From the NCBI GenBank assembly GCA_900450455.1, contig UGGN01000001.1:1054001-1118000 (forward strand): DNA of 64,000 bases, in the 5' to 3' direction. Source of the DNA: [Eubacterium] infirmum. Lineage in GTDB: Bacteria > Bacillota > Clostridia > Peptostreptococcales > Anaerovoracaceae. Positions within the stretch are counted from its first letter, which is position 1. Every line of letters begins with the position of its first letter. The notes under the pieces were generated by a model that was not told the origin of the DNA, ran no database searches, and saw only the letters and a list, made by a program, of their open reading frames with translations. This document shows positions 12,053 through 23,245 of this stretch, piece after piece. The position numbers and the translations under genes are program-made.

Positions 12053-12074
12053 CAGTAGATAATTGAATGCAACT

Positions 12075-12235
12075 ATCTTTGAGGCAGGTGAGAGTCCTGA
12101 CCGGTGGTATAGTCCACAAACCTTTTTAGGCCGATTCGGTGAAATTCCGAAACCGACGGTATTCCAACATTTGATATCTGATTGAGCAGTTTGTGAGCAG
12201 AGATAAATAGTTGGTTAGTCCGGATGGGAAAAGAT
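12075..12235 (+). ncRNA. FMN riboswitch (RFN element)
   Basis: The conserved core is clear. P1 is ATCTTT/AAAGAT. Next come GAGGCAGGTGAGAGTCCTGA, CCGGTGGTATAGTCCAC, GGTGAAATTCCGAAACCGAC and finally GTCCGGATGGG. A long variable stem separates the last two blocks. In known cases FMN binding ends transcription or blocks translation of riboflavin genes; here a terminator follows directly and the controlled gene is ribU. Confidence 0.96.
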
Positions 12236-12264
12236 GGAATGGATAGATATATGACTTTTTGAGT

Positions 12265-16608: not shown

Positions 16609-17859
16609 TTATCCTTTATAAAATTCTATAAACTCCCTGAAATTATCCATGCCGCTATCGATGAATGGACCGATGATTTTATCATCAAATTTGAACCTCT
16701 CGACATTACCAATATTACCGTTTTTACTAAAGCAGTCCGATAATAAAAGTGCTTTTGCAATTATATCTGTATCACTAGGATCAGCTGAGCAAACTATCGC
16801 TTCCTTTTCGTCGATAAAGAAGACGCTTCCGATGAGATCGGCATCGAGTCTATAGTGAGGACTGCACACATGGTCATTGTTATTCCTATATATCATGTAG
16901 AGCATGCCATTTTCGTGTGAGTGGGAGTTCACTGTGTGAAATGTCTTGCTAACAAGTTTGGAAAACTCTTCTTGGGTGCAACTACATTCGGCGGTTAGAA
17001 CATAGTCTATACGGCGAAGTTGCATAGCAGACTCCCATACAGTTATTTCCATGCAGGAAATGACTGTTGCGGATTTAACCACATCCTTTACAACTCGAAC
17101 CTCACTTACAATGAGAAAAAAATTTCCATCGTCTTCCACCAGTGACTTACACAAGTACTTCCGGGGACCAATTTTTTCAATATCATTCTTGAAAAGTGTT
17201 GATGGGTTATTTATCTTAAGCCCACGTGAGAATTTATCATATTGCGAAGTTTCGGTGCCTGTGTTATCGAGGAAACACTCGGAACATAGTATGCTGAGAG
17301 GGGTATTGTCCTTGCCTACGCAGCGCATGATGAAGTAGTTGACCAGCTCATTATCTGATCTGAGCTTAATGCATACCTTTGATAGGGCAGATCTATATAC
17401 TTCTGTATCTTCGTCAGCATCCTTTATTGCCTCGCGAAACTGCATGTAGTCCTCAGGAAATTCGACACCATATTCTTCGTTGATTCTATCTGCAGCTGCG
17501 ATGAGTGCCCAGCTTTCTTCGGCAGTTATATCTACCCATTCGCCACCGAGAGCGCCGAACATAGTGTCTGCGTGTGATTCGATTTCCTCTTCGGAATCCG
17601 TAAAGAGTCCCACGTAATCAGCAACTCCGTACTCCTCATAGTCGAGGATAAAGAGCTGCGTAAAACGGTGCCCCAGCATATTATATGAAAGCATCAGCCC
17701 TACTACTCCCATGAGTCTGGTATTTGTCGCTTTTATCTCAAAGCAACTATTTTTGAGCGATGCCCTGAGCTCATCAATTAAAGTAGGAGACTTTGTTTTC
17801 AAACCACCTTCAATGACGGAAAATCTGGATTGTTTACTGTTTATATTATCTCTTTTCAA
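16609..17859 (-). CDS. Unknown protein, 416 residues
   Basis: I do not recognise this protein. It appears soluble and acidic, without a signal peptide or clear membrane helix. Recognisable stretches are LMGVVGLMLSYNMLGHRF near residue 50 and a run of acidic residues (TDSEEEIESHAD) near 90. A middle segment has several cysteines (SILCSECFLDNTG). A C-terminal half looks like mixed alpha/beta. The start is TTG with AGAGGT five bases upstream, and a promoter (TTGCAT-N17-TATAAT) lies at 17883-17911. It is a single gene between the DnaA-box block and the cobalamin riboswitch. Confidence 0.7.
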   Translation of the reverse strand: MKRDNINSKQSRFSVIEGGLKTKSPTLIDELRASLKNSCFEIKATNTRLMGVVGLMLSYNMLGHRFTQLFILDYEEYGVADYVGLFTDSEEEIESHADTMFGALGGEWVDITAEESWALIAAADRINEEYGVEFPEDYMQFREAIKDADEDTEVYRSALSKVCIKLRSDNELVNYFIMRCVGKDNTPLSILCSECFLDNTGTETSQYDKFSRGLKINNPSTLFKNDIEKIGPRKYLCKSLVEDDGNFFLIVSEVRVVKDVVKSATVISCMEITVWESAMQLRRIDYVLTAECSCTQEEFSKLVSKTFHTVNSHSHENGMLYMIYRNNNDHVCSPHYRLDADLIGSVFFIDEKEAIVCSADPSDTDIIAKALLLSDCFSKNGNIGNVERFKFDDKIIGPFIDSGMDNFREFIEFYKG

Positions 17860-17982: not shown

Positions 17983-18011
17983 TTGACCGACATTGTGAAT
18001 TATGATAAAAT
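17983..18011 (+). promoter_or_regulatory. Promoter of the cobalamin-riboswitch transcript
   Basis: TTGACC-N17-TAAAAT precedes the riboswitch. The -10 region lies within the palindrome GATAAAATTTTATC (18004-18017). Confidence 0.6.
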
Positions 18012-18049
18012 TTTATCGATGTATATTGTGAGTTCTATCATTAAGGGTT

Positions 18050-18250
18050 TGAGATTGTACCTTAATACTTGATAGCTAAGAGGGAACTCGGTGTAAATCC
18101 GAGACGGATTCCGCCACTGTAAATGAAGAGCAGCATTGGGCAAGCGCAACCATTGGATTTATCCGAGAAGGTTAATGCTGTATTGAGGCATAAGTCAGGA
18201 GACCTGCTCATAATACGGACGAAAGTGTAGGAAAGCACGGAGTCTATCTT
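18050..18250 (+). ncRNA. Cobalamin (B12) riboswitch
   Basis: The conserved core AGGGAACTCGGTGTAAATCC, followed by GACGGATTCCGCCACTGTAA, lies at about 18079-18123. The B12 box AAGTCAGGAGACCTGC lies at 18192-18207. An upstream stem TTAAGG/CCTTAA matches the P2 region. The boundaries are approximate. A terminator follows, so bound cobalamin would be expected to stop transcription of the downstream surface-protein gene. Confidence 0.95.
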
Positions 18251-18265
18251 TTTGCAGAAAAAACG

Positions 18266-18300
18266 GACTGCAGTTGTTTATATGTGCTGCGGTCTATTTT
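18266..18300 (+). terminator. Terminator of the cobalamin riboswitch
   Basis: GACTGCAG (18266-18273) pairs with CTGCGGTC (18287-18294) with one G-T pair, then TATTTTATT. It lies 26 bases before the start codon. Confidence 0.75.
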
Positions 18301-18325
18301 ATTGCAGCGGAAAGGATTTTTATAG

Positions 18326-21300
18326 ATGTCATACAAAAAGTATGGATCGAAGAGAATATTGGCATTACTGCTGACTTTCCTTATGATCCTATCACTCGTT
18401 CCGGCTTCTGCATTTGCAGATGGACCTGACGAAGACGATTATCCGAAAAAAACGATCGAAGTTCAATTTACCTTATCACATGATGATAACTTCGTCGTTG
18501 CGGAAAAGCATGGCGGTGTATCAAAAAAGCCAATTGCAAGGGAGAAATTTGAACTTAAATACTTTGACCTAAAAAATTACGGTCTGGAAAAGTTCTATTT
18601 CAAAAGCAAGAAATATAATCAGGGTGATAATTTGGTGGGAACGCCGGAAACTGCAAGAAATCATCTCACCGTCCTGCATCTGTATATATATGTAGCGGAA
18701 GTCTATTACTTAGGAATAGATCCGAAGGATGTAGGTAAGGGAGCACTGAAGGAAAAATTCGGAACGGATTTGTTCAGCTATAGCGGTTCGCCGGGCTCTA
18801 TGTTCTTCAATAAAATTTTTAACTTTGATTACAATCTCAATTATTATGTCAATGGTAGATATCCATTAGCCTCGTCAGGCTGGGGGGCAACCGCAGATCA
18901 AATAGAGCTGTTTGATGGCGATGAAGTTCAGTTAGGTCATTTTTCAGATATGGGGTTCTACGGCGATAAAGATGCCGGCTTCCACATGATGACAAGCCGT
19001 GATAATGTAGATGCGGGAGAGACGATAAAAGTCGATGTAGACCGTTATTTCGGAATGTCGGGTGAGACAAAGCGCTATGAAACTAAAGCTTCTAAGCTAT
19101 ATGTAATAAAAAAATCTAACTTTACAGAAGAGGACCCACGTAAATGCATTGTTGACAGGGTGATAGAAAAAAACTCTGACGGTAAATTCATGTTTGATAC
19201 AACAGGCTTGGCGGCAGGTAAATACTATATAGCTGTTCCGGGTCAAAAGGGTGAAAAGAGCGATGCCATAGTCTCAACACCTGCAGTAACGATTGTGAAT
19301 GTCAGATCTACAGAGCAGCCTGAGGAAAAATTCCCGATTTCAATAAAAGGCTTGCATTCAAGGCAGATTAAGAGTGGAAAACTCTACACTTTCAAAAATG
19401 GTGTTAAGGGCGACAAAAACCTTCTGGAGGGCATCGACACATCTCCGGATAACTGGGCTTTACAGTATAAGACGGAGCTTCCGGCAGGAGACTACTGGTT
19501 CGAAGGCTATGGTCCTAACGATGAGCTGAACGGTGGCATAAAGCTGAGTTTTACAAAAGAAAATAACAGTGTAACTCTGCATAGAATCTGGGACTTTAAT
19601 ATAGGAAACTCAGGATGGGTGCAGGATAAAGACTATAAGCTTGATGTCAAGGTGAGCGGAAGTGATGGAACTCTCAGAACTATAAGCTTTGGTAAAAATG
19701 AGAATAATAAGCTTTCATTCCTATATATGGATAGGGATACAGTAGAGGCAACCCTGACACCTATAGGAGATAAGGCGAAAACTCATACTAGTATTAAGGT
19801 CGTAAAGACAGCAAACGAGACAAACAGCAACACCGATATAAGGGCTACCATGCCTGAAATCGTGAACCTGACGATTACGGCACCTAAGGGTTCAAAGATA
19901 TCGGCAGGCTACGGTGACGATAGAAACTACTATAAGTACAACTTCGTAGAGCCTGAGATTACAGAGACATCGGATGGTGTTATTGCAAAATTCAAGATGG
20001 CAAAAGACCAGAGCAAGTATTTCTATCGTGTGCAGAATCCTAAGGGAGTCACATATTGGGCCTTCCCAAAGGATTTTAATGTAACGGAACCTATTAAGGT
20101 GACGGAGAAGGATTTGCATATAGGTGACAGCAGCTACAAAAAGAACACCATCTACAGATTTGACAAAAACGTATATGACATGGCAAATGTCTATATGAAC
20201 ATCAACCAAAAGGGATTCCTTGAGATGGCAGAGGGTGGAAGCTATGAACTCAATTGTGTGAGAAACTGGCAGCCTATTGAAAACTTCATGAATAGTAAGA
20301 TTGCTATTCCGGATTTTCACTACGAGGTAATAGACGAGAACGGAAATGCTTCAGATGTAGTATCAGTAACAGCAGATAAGAACAATTCGGCTGTAGCAAA
20401 GATCAAAGCAAATCATAGCGGAACAGCAATTGTACTCGTAAAATACGATGCAGTAATACACTCAGAAGCTCAAGGAGGAACTGACTTCTCAGCAATTTGG
20501 CCGGAACTGACAGGTGTATTTATGGTGAAGGTTGGCGATAATGATTCGTCAATACAGACAAATATGAATATCAACCGCGGTAATAAGATGATGCCAATCG
20601 ATTCTGAACATGACACCATCTACTACCTAAAGGGTGAAGACGGCGCAAACTATTCATTTAAACCTGAGGCAGGAAGTAAGGTAAGCGTTAACAGAAGTGT
20701 GGTAGGTGAAACTTTAAAGTACAGTGGATTCACCACAGACGGTGTTAATACAGAAGAAAACGGAGAGGTTACAGTATCAAAGCTAACAAGCGGAAGACAT
20801 ATAATCAAAGTTGAAAAGGATGGCAAGGTAACATATCAGATTATCAACGCTAGAGAGATGAGCTACGAAATCCTTGATACAAATGGACAGAAGATAACCG
20901 ATACAACAAAACTAAAGGCCGGAGATAAGATCAATATCCAGTTCAAGGGACTTCTAAATCCGGTTGAAAAACTGGCAGGAGTATATAATAGGAATACGAC
21001 TATTTCATATAAGGATAAGAGTGGAAACGCATATAAATCCGTCCCTGGAAGCCCTTTCGGTGTTTACGATTTCAGCGGAAATCCTAAGCAGCAGCTAGTT
21101 TCTTTAACCATTCCGGAAAACTTGGAAGGCGATGAATTGGAACTGGTTGACGGATGCCTCGAAAGCAATGGTTTCGGAAGCAATCCGGGGTCACACAGAA
21201 ATCTGACATATTCACAGGGATTAAATCCTAATTTGAATGCGGATACAGTCTCAGGAAATTTAAGCAGCTTGCCAAATATTAAAATAAAGCTGGCAAAGAA

Positions 21301-22945
21301 ATGCAAGGTAGAGTTTGTTGGAAGCGGTATAAAGGATATAGAGGGGGAAAACCCAAGATATTGCTCAGCGGGAAGCGAACTGAAATTCAAAATCAACAAG
21401 AAGGAACTTTACAAGTATACTGTAAGTGTAAATGGTACAGAGATTAAGCCTGATGAGAATGGTGTATATTTGCTTGCAGGCAAGCTTACAAAAGATGAGA
21501 CCCTAAATGTAACGGTTGAAAAGACAATTGACGAGGAGGCTCTGAACAAGAAGATTGCCGACATAGAAAAAGGTAAGGCGGATGCAGAGTTAAAGGCAGC
21601 AGAGGCAGAGAAGGCTCAAAAGGCAGCAGAGGCAAAGGCAGCAGAGGCAGAAAAAGCAAAGAATATGGCTGAAGAGAAGGCTGCAAAGGCTGAGGAAACC
21701 AGGAAACAGGCAGAGAAGAAGCTTGCTCAGGCTGAGAGCGAAAAGAAGCAGGCTCAGGACAAGCTTGTAGCTGCAGAGGCTGAAAAGGATAAGGCGGTAA
21801 CGAAGGCTGAAAAGGCAGAAGCAGAGAAGAAACTGGCTCTAGCAAAGGCTGAAAAAGCCGAGGCTGACAAGAAGGCTGCTCTAGCAAGAGCTGAAAAAGC
21901 TGAAGCCGATAAGAAGGCTGCTGAAGCGAGAGCTGAGAAGGCAGAGGCAGAGCTGAACAATGCTCTGGCAAAAGCTGAAAAAGCTGAAGCTGATAAGAGA
22001 GCTGCGGAGGCAAAGATTAAGGAACTCGCTGAAGAGGTAGAGCGACTGAAGAACGAGAAAGAAAAGGGTATTGAAAGGATTGCCGGAGATACTCGTTTTG
22101 AGACATCAATGGCAATAGCCGACAAGCTCAAGGAAAAGCTTGGTGTAGAAAAATTCGATAACATTGTTATCGCTAACGGTGAAAATTTTGCGGATGCTCT
22201 TTCAGCTACATATCTGGCAAAGGTTAAGCATGCTCCTATTTTGATAGTAAATAAGTCAAGTGCTAAGGACATCAGCGCCTACGTGAAGAAGAACGCATCT
22301 GAGAATGTAAATGTTTATATCATAGGTGGAGAGGATGTTGTATCAAAAGAAATTGCCGATATGATTCCGGGTAAGAAGCATAGGCTTGAAGGTGAGACAA
22401 GATTTGAGACAAACCTGAAGGTGTTAAATGCGGCCGGTGTTCAGGGAGAGGATATCGCACTTTGCAACGCGTATAACTTTGCGGATGCTCTCTCAGCTTC
22501 AGCAGCAGGAAAGCCTATAATGTTAGTCGGCAATAAGTTGAGCGATGCTCAGACAGCGTACTTAAAGACTCTCAACAGCAAGAAGTTCTACCTAATTGGT
22601 GGAAGCGATGTTGTAAGTAAAAATGTAGAAAATACTGTGTCAAAGCTTGGTAAGGTAGAGCGATTGGAAGGCGCAGACAGATTTGCAACTTCTAGGATTG
22701 TGGCTGAAAAGTTCTTTGCCGGAGAGCATCGAAAGGCCTATCTAACATATGGTCTAAACTTCCCTGACGGACTTTGCGCAGGAGTTTTATGCACGGTAGA
22801 TAACAGTCCGCTTTTGCTAGTAAGCAATACCAACATGACTGAGGCCGGTGCATATATTAAAAAAGCTAAGGTACAAAAGTGTTTTGTCCTAGGTGGAGCT
22901 GATTTGATTTCGAACGAATCAGCTAATAATCTACTTAAGAAATAA
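18326..22945 (+). CDS. Secreted cell-wall-bound protein: transcobalamin-like (DUF4430) domain, coiled coil and three CWB2 repeats
   Basis: This 1539-residue protein has, in order: a signal peptide (cut near ASAFA-DG, residue 31); an N-terminal domain with YYVNGRYPLASSGWGATADQ and ELFDGDEV near residues 172-205, the DUF4430 pattern related to the transcobalamin C-terminal domain; several beta-rich Ig-like stretches (about 220-1065); an Ala/Glu/Lys coiled coil (about 1068-1247) with five 14-residue repeats; and three CWB2 repeats (about 1248-1539) beginning RIAGDTRFETS, RLEGETRFETN and RLEGADRFATS. CWB2 repeats bind anionic wall polymers, so no sortase signal is needed. The gene is under a cobalamin riboswitch. 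I infer a corrinoid-capturing surface protein that hands B12 to a transporter; no transporter gene is adjacent. The binding function is inference from regulation plus domain. Confidence 0.9.
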   Translation: MSYKKYGSKRILALLLTFLMILSLVPASAFADGPDEDDYPKKTIEVQFTLSHDDNFVVAEKHGGVSKKPIAREKFELKYFDLKNYGLEKFYFKSKKYNQGDNLVGTPETARNHLTVLHLYIYVAEVYYLGIDPKDVGKGALKEKFGTDLFSYSGSPGSMFFNKIFNFDYNLNYYVNGRYPLASSGWGATADQIELFDGDEVQLGHFSDMGFYGDKDAGFHMMTSRDNVDAGETIKVDVDRYFGMSGETKRYETKASKLYVIKKSNFTEEDPRKCIVDRVIEKNSDGKFMFDTTGLAAGKYYIAVPGQKGEKSDAIVSTPAVTIVNVRSTEQPEEKFPISIKGLHSRQIKSGKLYTFKNGVKGDKNLLEGIDTSPDNWALQYKTELPAGDYWFEGYGPNDELNGGIKLSFTKENNSVTLHRIWDFNIGNSGWVQDKDYKLDVKVSGSDGTLRTISFGKNENNKLSFLYMDRDTVEATLTPIGDKAKTHTSIKVVKTANETNSNTDIRATMPEIVNLTITAPKGSKISAGYGDDRNYYKYNFVEPEITETSDGVIAKFKMAKDQSKYFYRVQNPKGVTYWAFPKDFNVTEPIKVTEKDLHIGDSSYKKNTIYRFDKNVYDMANVYMNINQKGFLEMAEGGSYELNCVRNWQPIENFMNSKIAIPDFHYEVIDENGNASDVVSVTADKNNSAVAKIKANHSGTAIVLVKYDAVIHSEAQGGTDFSAIWPELTGVFMVKVGDNDSSIQTNMNINRGNKMMPIDSEHDTIYYLKGEDGANYSFKPEAGSKVSVNRSVVGETLKYSGFTTDGVNTEENGEVTVSKLTSGRHIIKVEKDGKVTYQIINAREMSYEILDTNGQKITDTTKLKAGDKINIQFKGLLNPVEKLAGVYNRNTTISYKDKSGNAYKSVPGSPFGVYDFSGNPKQQLVSLTIPENLEGDELELVDGCLESNGFGSNPGSHRNLTYSQGLNPNLNADTVSGNLSSLPNIKIKLAKKCKVEFVGSGIKDIEGENPRYCSAGSELKFKINKKELYKYTVSVNGTEIKPDENGVYLLAGKLTKDETLNVTVEKTIDEEALNKKIADIEKGKADAELKAAEAEKAQKAAEAKAAEAEKAKNMAEEKAAKAEETRKQAEKKLAQAESEKKQAQDKLVAAEAEKDKAVTKAEKAEAEKKLALAKAEKAEADKKAALARAEKAEADKKAAEARAEKAEAELNNALAKAEKAEADKRAAEAKIKELAEEVERLKNEKEKGIERIAGDTRFETSMAIADKLKEKLGVEKFDNIVIANGENFADALSATYLAKVKHAPILIVNKSSAKDISAYVKKNASENVNVYIIGGEDVVSKEIADMIPGKKHRLEGETRFETNLKVLNAAGVQGEDIALCNAYNFADALSASAAGKPIMLVGNKLSDAQTAYLKTLNSKKFYLIGGSDVVSKNVENTVSKLGKVERLEGADRFATSRIVAEKFFAGEHRKAYLTYGLNFPDGLCAGVLCTVDNSPLLLVSNTNMTEAGAYIKKAKVQKCFVLGGADLISNESANNLLKK
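21803..22012 (+). repeat. Five tandem 42-bp repeats in the coiled coil
   Basis: Units start at 21803, 21845, 21887, 21929 and 21971. Each encodes 14 residues of the form (K/R)AEKAEADKKAALA, two heptads. Unit number could vary between strains by slippage, changing how far the N-terminal domains stand off the wall. Confidence 0.85.
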
Positions 22946-23136: not shown

Positions 23137-23245
23137 TCCTTATCAAGAGCGGCGGAGGGAATAGGCCCTGCGATGCCCGGCAACCTATGTGCTGATAGGC
23201 ACGGAAAGGTGCTACATCCTACAGATATATTCTGAAAGATGAGGA
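23137..23245 (+). ncRNA. SAM-I riboswitch (S-box)
   Basis: P1 is CCTTATC/GATGAGG. Inside it are AAGAGCGGCGGAGGGA, GGCCCTGCGATGCCCGGCAACC, a variable hairpin with GGTGCTACATCC and the closing TGAAAGATGAGG, all typical of the S-box. SAM binding would favour the terminator that follows and shut down metK. Confidence 0.96.

Follow-up and report, generated by a model that had tools for sequence, protein, structure and literature searches.

In the 64,000-nucleotide stretch of the [Eubacterium] infirmum genome analysed here (GenBank assembly GCA_900450455.1, contig UGGN01000001.1, positions 1,054,001 to 1,118,000 of the forward strand; hereafter the window), a cobalamin riboswitch lies directly ahead of a large open reading frame (ORF) encoding a protein of 1539 amino acids. 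A reading of the letters alone (the original prediction) had described this as a wall-anchored, transcobalamin-like protein, suggested to capture corrinoids at the cell surface. The features of the locus are listed in Table 1.

Table 1. Features of the riboswitch-controlled locus, in window positions
Feature	Position	Strand	Basis
Promoter-like site TTGACC-17-TAAAAT, TG preceding the -10	17983..18011	+	Consensus scan, 10/12
Cobalamin riboswitch aptamer (RF00174)	18026..18214	+	87.5 bits, E 3.2e-20; aligned to covariance model
Expression platform	18248..18314	+	10-bp hairpin 18265-18295 with U-rich tail, nested in longer helix
Surface protein gene, 1539 amino acids (predicted)	18326..22945	+	ORF; riboswitch-linked ortholog in another species of the genus
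Putative signal peptide, residues 1-31	18326..18418	+	Read by eye: KR, hydrophobic core, AFA/DG
Transcobalamin-beta-like domain, residues 41-213	18446..18964	+	
Immunoglobulin (Ig)-like domain, residues ~211-332	18956..19321	+	313-residue AlphaFold2 model, pLDDT 91.4; VIA-align matches over model 184-305
Middle module, residues 340-780	19343..20665	+	Protein search
Residues 781-1060	20666..21505	+	No confident family, no Pfam match above cut-off
Ala/Glu/Lys-rich coiled-coil-like stalk, residues ~1061-1248	21506..22069	+	Sequence; sub-threshold SMC and TolA matches
Three CWB2 cell-wall-binding repeats (PF04122), residues ~1249-1539	22070..22945	+	E 3e-48, 3 stretches

The riboswitch leader and the protein it precedes

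The RF00174 match lies well above its curated cut-off of 31.5 bits, in agreement with the original prediction, and ends 111 bases before the ATG of the ORF. The promoter-like site is a weak call, since the 601-base region holds five such sites on both strands where 2.4 would be expected. RNA folding of positions 18214-18345 (-36 kcal/mol, z -3.2) gave the hairpin, then UAUUUUAUU, both within a longer helix in which most of the Shine-Dalgarno sequence (18309-18315) is paired as well. A simple scan of the leader found no terminator because its loop limit is 8 and the loop of this hairpin is 11. The terminator of the original prediction is partly supported, by a hairpin with a U-rich tail; the nesting of this hairpin in a helix covering most of the Shine-Dalgarno sequence makes both transcription termination and blocking of the ribosome site possible as the means of control. 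The next gene downstream has its own S-adenosylmethionine (SAM) riboswitch (23137-23245), and the 1539-amino-acid ORF is thus most simply a single-gene unit, consistent with the predicted control of one large protein. Together with a flavin mononucleotide (FMN) riboswitch at 12071-12239, this places riboswitches for three cofactors within about 11 kb of the window. A divergent 416-amino-acid ORF adjoining the cobalamin riboswitch (16609-17859, minus strand) has no Pfam match at E <= 0.01.

The protein is predicted to be secreted or surface-located on the basis of the three CWB2 repeats, correctly called in the original prediction, and of a signal peptide. Secretion and the coiled-coil stalk had likewise been proposed; both remain readings by eye, the stalk matching SMC and TolA types below threshold only. 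SlpA is a sub-threshold NCBIfam match of the protein. The middle module is present in 3480 of 7988 scored proteins and, among the 120 matches listed, some carry PF14478 (DUF4430) and PF00432 (alpha-toroid).

By comparison with database relatives P0003-P0006, identity is 61-64% in the beta-like domain and 43% in the Ig-like part, versus 92-97% for residues 336-560; with P0007 and P0053, residues 336-560 are 72% and residues 561-780 93% identical. The front cassette (residues 33-335) appears from these alignments to diverge more quickly than the module that follows, as would agree with a shifting choice of ligand, exchange of cassettes, fast selection, or escape from phage or antibodies.

Predicted fold of the N-terminal domain

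The original prediction assigned the N terminus to DUF4430 (PF14478). This label was not recovered by Pfam profile search, either in the 1539-amino-acid protein at E <= 10 or in any of 39 sequences of the N-terminal, beta-like module at E <= 1 (alignments A2 and A3: the window and 38 of 46 relative loci). Comparison of a predicted structure with transcobalamin and intrinsic factor, proposed at the same time as a check, was more favourable. With the full 313-residue model as the query the fold search was swamped by the Ig-like domain, and residues 41-215 were therefore predicted alone. The nearest solved folds of this model are cobalamin carriers, which take the leading fold-comparison rows; the aligned part is 6-14% identical in sequence to the animal carriers. 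Used by itself, Foldseek gave weak results with the model, the viral structure library gave nothing convincing, and a sequence profile of the module matched no cobalamin carrier among solved structures. Two strands that come after the helix in the model (110-113 and 120-124) may correspond to the beta-hairpin insert found at that point in the transcobalamin-like SLBB clade. The model gives the domain a beta-grasp fold like that of the transcobalamin beta domain; hhalign tentatively aligned the module with a DUF4430 set over the same motif region (YxVNG...L.DGD), and the modelled fold points to the same kind of domain as the DUF4430 type despite the negative profile.

With a riboswitch directly ahead and this predicted fold, the predicted wall-anchored protein probably serves to catch corrinoids on the outside of the cell in times of shortage. 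The ligand might instead be cobalt, a free lower-ligand base, a porphyrin or some other small molecule subject to the same regulation. Cobalamin riboswitches control cobalt transporters as well as B12 transporters (PMC3766115, in the passage cited), which leaves corrinoids the more direct choice with cobalt still conceivable; given the cobalamin carriers at the head of the fold rows, we regard a ligand other than a corrinoid as improbable.

Riboswitch linkage in Clostridia and in the source genome

A profile of the module (A1), built from the window and 12 of 17 fragments, found 66 places in 46 genomes: 41 genomes with 46 loci, mostly ruminant-gut metagenome-assembled genomes named Oscillospiraceae, Lachnospiraceae, Clostridia or Eubacterium, with one Blautia, plus 5 of 61 relatives including the source genome (G000). 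These genomes were chosen because the module is present, several loci come from close relatives and two places may share one protein. The counts that follow are lower bounds, as 165 of 174 RF00174 matches entered them and the stricter filters used in relatives lose weak matches. A same-strand match ends upstream of the module within 1 kb at no fewer than 34 places, within 3 kb at >=45 (0.2 expected by chance) and within 10 kb at >=53 (0.68 expected); linkage within 3 kb occurs at one or more places in at least 38 of the 46 genomes. Among the matches listed, none lies on the opposite strand or downstream within 3 kb of the module (0/66), and 13 places have none within 10 kb upstream. Triple same-strand matches were seen upstream of the module gene at G077:C3:37833-39220, G087:C48:29696-31083 and G085:C3:28311-29217.

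A draw of 391 genomes of the class contained the middle module in 10, including G000 and a second species of the genus (G008); in the remaining eight, four of nine middle-module places have a riboswitch within 3 kb upstream, with none in the control, and one unlinked genome of the eight, G460, looks like the same genome as G061. The original prediction had also suggested a search for riboswitch-linked DUF4430 genes in Clostridia. Canonical DUF4430 proteins follow this pattern loosely, with 19 of 90 rows linked within 3 kb versus 7 of 90 in the control (34 genomes searched; two rows repeat, since G061 and G460 are seemingly one genome), whereas the window-type module, which is larger (~175 amino acids), is tied more tightly. 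When 11 of the 12 riboswitch matches of G008 were inspected, six were found ahead of large surface proteins with orthologs among those of G000; one of the six is the window ortholog, which is 82% identical over 1548 amino acids. That the linkage is incidental, and the protein a general structural component of the wall, would agree with the occurrence of CWB2 in S-layer-type proteins (cf. the SlpA match) and with a window protein lacking both a toroid and an adjoining transporter; against the observed excess of linked places over chance and the conservation in the second species, however, this is very hard to credit.

The source genome has 15 RF00174 matches, 13 above cut-off, and 11 of the 15 precede large proteins that we judged surface-type from signal-like starts, C-termini and Pfam domains: the window protein, C2:525511, C2:155798, C1:6998, C2:1040177, C2:480200, C2:1150682, C2:760707, C2:914861, C2:578598, and C2:1170708 (330 amino acids) with 1171767 (1198 amino acids). 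As the matches at 578563 and 1170444 fall below cut-off, the figure for above-cut-off riboswitches is nine of 13. Four of these 11 proteins have a Pfam DUF4430 match, one of them (C2:1040177) below cut-off; one has a toroid-like domain, one besides the window protein has the module, and CWB2 forms the C-terminal end of four, counting the window protein. In several others the C terminus consists of NTGD-type motifs and a membrane helix, which gives it a sortase-type look. Genome-wide, four DUF4430 proteins score above the Pfam cut-off, three of them behind B12 riboswitch matches (one below the Rfam cut-off).

Of the remaining four riboswitches, one precedes a TIM-barrel protein, one a methyltransferase followed by an ATP-binding cassette (ABC) operon that by eye is of peptide/nickel type, one the cbi operon, and one a protein that looks NEAT-like by eye, with BtuFCD-like genes. 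The best-scoring of all (105.5 bits) is that before the TIM-barrel protein, which is xylose-isomerase-like (C2:531759-532975, L023) and not obviously related to B12. The cbi operon comprises cbiK, D, F, G, H, J, ET, A, B, P, C and an aminotransferase (CbiK and CbiG below NCBIfam cut-offs), and is ended directly by the gene for a 1017-amino-acid adhesin of antigen I/II and GbpC type (C2:246875-249928; L091:8376-11429). The riboswitch-linked BtuFCD-like operon spans C1:30865-35007 (BtuFCD-like genes, C1:31607-35007); with its riboswitch (C1:30523-35007, L027), it opens with a secreted-looking protein of 269 amino acids, the NEAT-like one, for which there was no Pfam NEAT match at E <= 1 and nothing convincing by profile among solved structures. 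A second small protein, beside cbiK (C2:234052-234693, L025), has a sub-threshold NEAT match (E 0.0051); both are possibly corrin-binding relatives of heme-binding NEAT domains.

A further operon (C2:565423-572422) encodes an energy-coupling factor (ECF) transporter, with an EcfT-like protein (CbiQ, 24.7 bits against a cut-off of 25), a double ABC ATPase and an S component (PF07155), alongside one DUF4430 protein, a second that matches DUF4430 below threshold (E 0.055), and a lipoprotein of toroid-like type (C2:571331) itself without a Pfam match. The small DUF4430 protein gave nothing convincing by profile among solved structures, and the genome riboswitch scan found no RF00174 match ahead of this operon. 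In some relatives such genes stand beside the module. Fifteen ORFs of the 46 loci, many of them mutually close relatives, carry the module and a toroid-like domain in one chain, and L067, L078, L080 and L071, all riboswitch-linked, typically show the order module-toroid protein, DUF4430 protein, EcfT, EcfA (running off the end of the stretch in three). An S component is present in L082 and L039, with a fragment in L071; in L039 (Blautia) the module gene comes downstream of the ECF genes, with no riboswitch nearby. The toroid label rests on sub-threshold Pfam matches, including one to Cobalamin_bind (E 0.048) in one relative, and on profile matches to solved squalene cyclases (E 2.4e-9) and, more weakly, prenyltransferases; transcobalamin was not matched by the same profile.

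These neighbourhoods bear on a different explanation, that the protein is an adhesin induced by low B12 that fixes the cell to host surfaces or to neighbours producing corrinoids through adhesive beta-grasp and Ig domains, without holding the vitamin. Several riboswitch-linked proteins of G000 do carry adhesin-type or matrix domains (LRR_5, SHIRT, CarboxypepD_reg, GLUG), and the antigen I/II-GbpC-type gene at the end of the cbi operon is in keeping with it. However, the nearest solved folds of the domain are cobalamin carriers, and in relatives the module is fused to a toroid-like domain and encoded alongside ECF transporter genes, so that we consider the adhesin unlikely.

Proposed corrinoid capture and its relation to known systems

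For the favoured reading, corrinoid capture, we infer the ligand, its hand-over, the partner proteins and the direction of an OFF switch as follows. Low intracellular cobalamin would leave the riboswitch open (ON), the protein would be secreted and kept in the wall by CWB2, and the stalk would raise the binding part off the wall. The beta-like domain would hold the corrinoid, perhaps together with the alpha-toroid of another protein, either the ECF-operon lipoprotein or the 1311-amino-acid riboswitch-linked CWB2 protein C2:525511, and the ligand might then be handed to the ECF transporter (C2:565423-568930) or the BtuFCD-like system. The capture originally predicted gains support from two independent sides, the predicted fold and the strong riboswitch linkage across Clostridia, and loses its DUF4430 label.

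Three observations weigh against this proposal. The window protein has no PF00432 toroid match at E <= 10. It has no adjacent transporter gene, as originally noted for the window, although the gene runs of some relatives hold a DUF4430 protein with ECF genes. Most of an operon for cobalamin synthesis is, moreover, present in the strain, which may therefore make corrinoids; this weakens the idea of an auxotroph that simply scavenges, which would explain no more than part of the picture. Synthesis and salvage could well share one control, though the need is then less plain. More speculatively, and in our view less likely than not, about a dozen giant surface proteins per genome could form a corrinoid-capture coat under B12-riboswitch control, in which transcobalamin halves (beta-like and alpha-toroid) on separate anchored proteins together enclose a corrinoid before an ECF or Btu transporter takes it over; such a coat would be a Gram-positive counterpart of BtuG/BtuH, kin to the bacterial pool behind animal intrinsic factor and transcobalamin, and its fast-changing beta-like cassette could tune the choice of cobamide.

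Extracellular corrinoid capture by Gram-positive gut and oral bacteria is largely open, whereas the surface binders of Bacteroides have been studied directly. In a literature survey judged by titles and abstract openings, with subscription papers and preprints thinly covered, we recognised no description of transcobalamin-like surface proteins of Gram-positive bacteria under B12-riboswitch control; a review of Clostridioides difficile describes, in the part consulted, three cobalamin riboswitches before transport and biosynthesis operons and none before a surface protein (PMC11477304). As far as we have seen, what is new is a module of the transcobalamin-beta fold class that Pfam does not see, the counts that tie it to B12 riboswitches, its anchoring through CWB2, and the large number of surface genes that a single cobalamin regulon contains. 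Riboswitch-tied in dozens of Clostridia and with a predicted carrier-like fold, the module offers a concrete set of proteins for purification.

In role, the protein would resemble BtuG and BtuH of Bacteroides, surface lipoproteins in B12-riboswitch-regulated loci that would catch B12 for uptake (PMC6143338, in the passages cited; see also PMC8941943). BtuG2 is a seven-bladed beta-propeller (PMC6143338), and BtuG/BtuH sit on the Gram-negative outer membrane with BtuB as partner. Another likeness is to the transcobalamin-like SLBB clade of Burroughs et al. (2007), who linked the beta domain of transcobalamin to proteins secreted by low-GC Gram-positives, noted fusions to toroids and operons with CbiO/CbiQ, and suggested B12 scavenging as the role and a transfer to animals (PMC1796856, in part). 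The window protein shares with that clade the predicted beta-grasp fold, the secreted or surface type, toroid fusions and CbiO/CbiQ-like (ECF) operon genes in relatives, and the predicted scavenging; unlike the clade as described, it is unmatched by Pfam DUF4430, has a CWB2 anchor and belongs to a module tied to B12 riboswitches, the word 'riboswitch' being absent from the main text of that paper. Such bacteria are there said usually to lack key biosynthesis enzymes, whereas the source strain keeps a cbi operon. Animal transcobalamin, haptocorrin and intrinsic factor differ in that toroid-like and beta-like domains are here on separate proteins of G000, with a predicted wall anchor, rather than in one chain as in two-domain transcobalamin. 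The isolated beta domain of human transcobalamin binds cobalamin, with lowered affinity (PMC5599065, in the passage cited). Through its predicted fold, the module is of interest for the idea, put forward in 2007, that the B12 carriers of animals may derive from surface proteins of low-GC Gram-positive bacteria.
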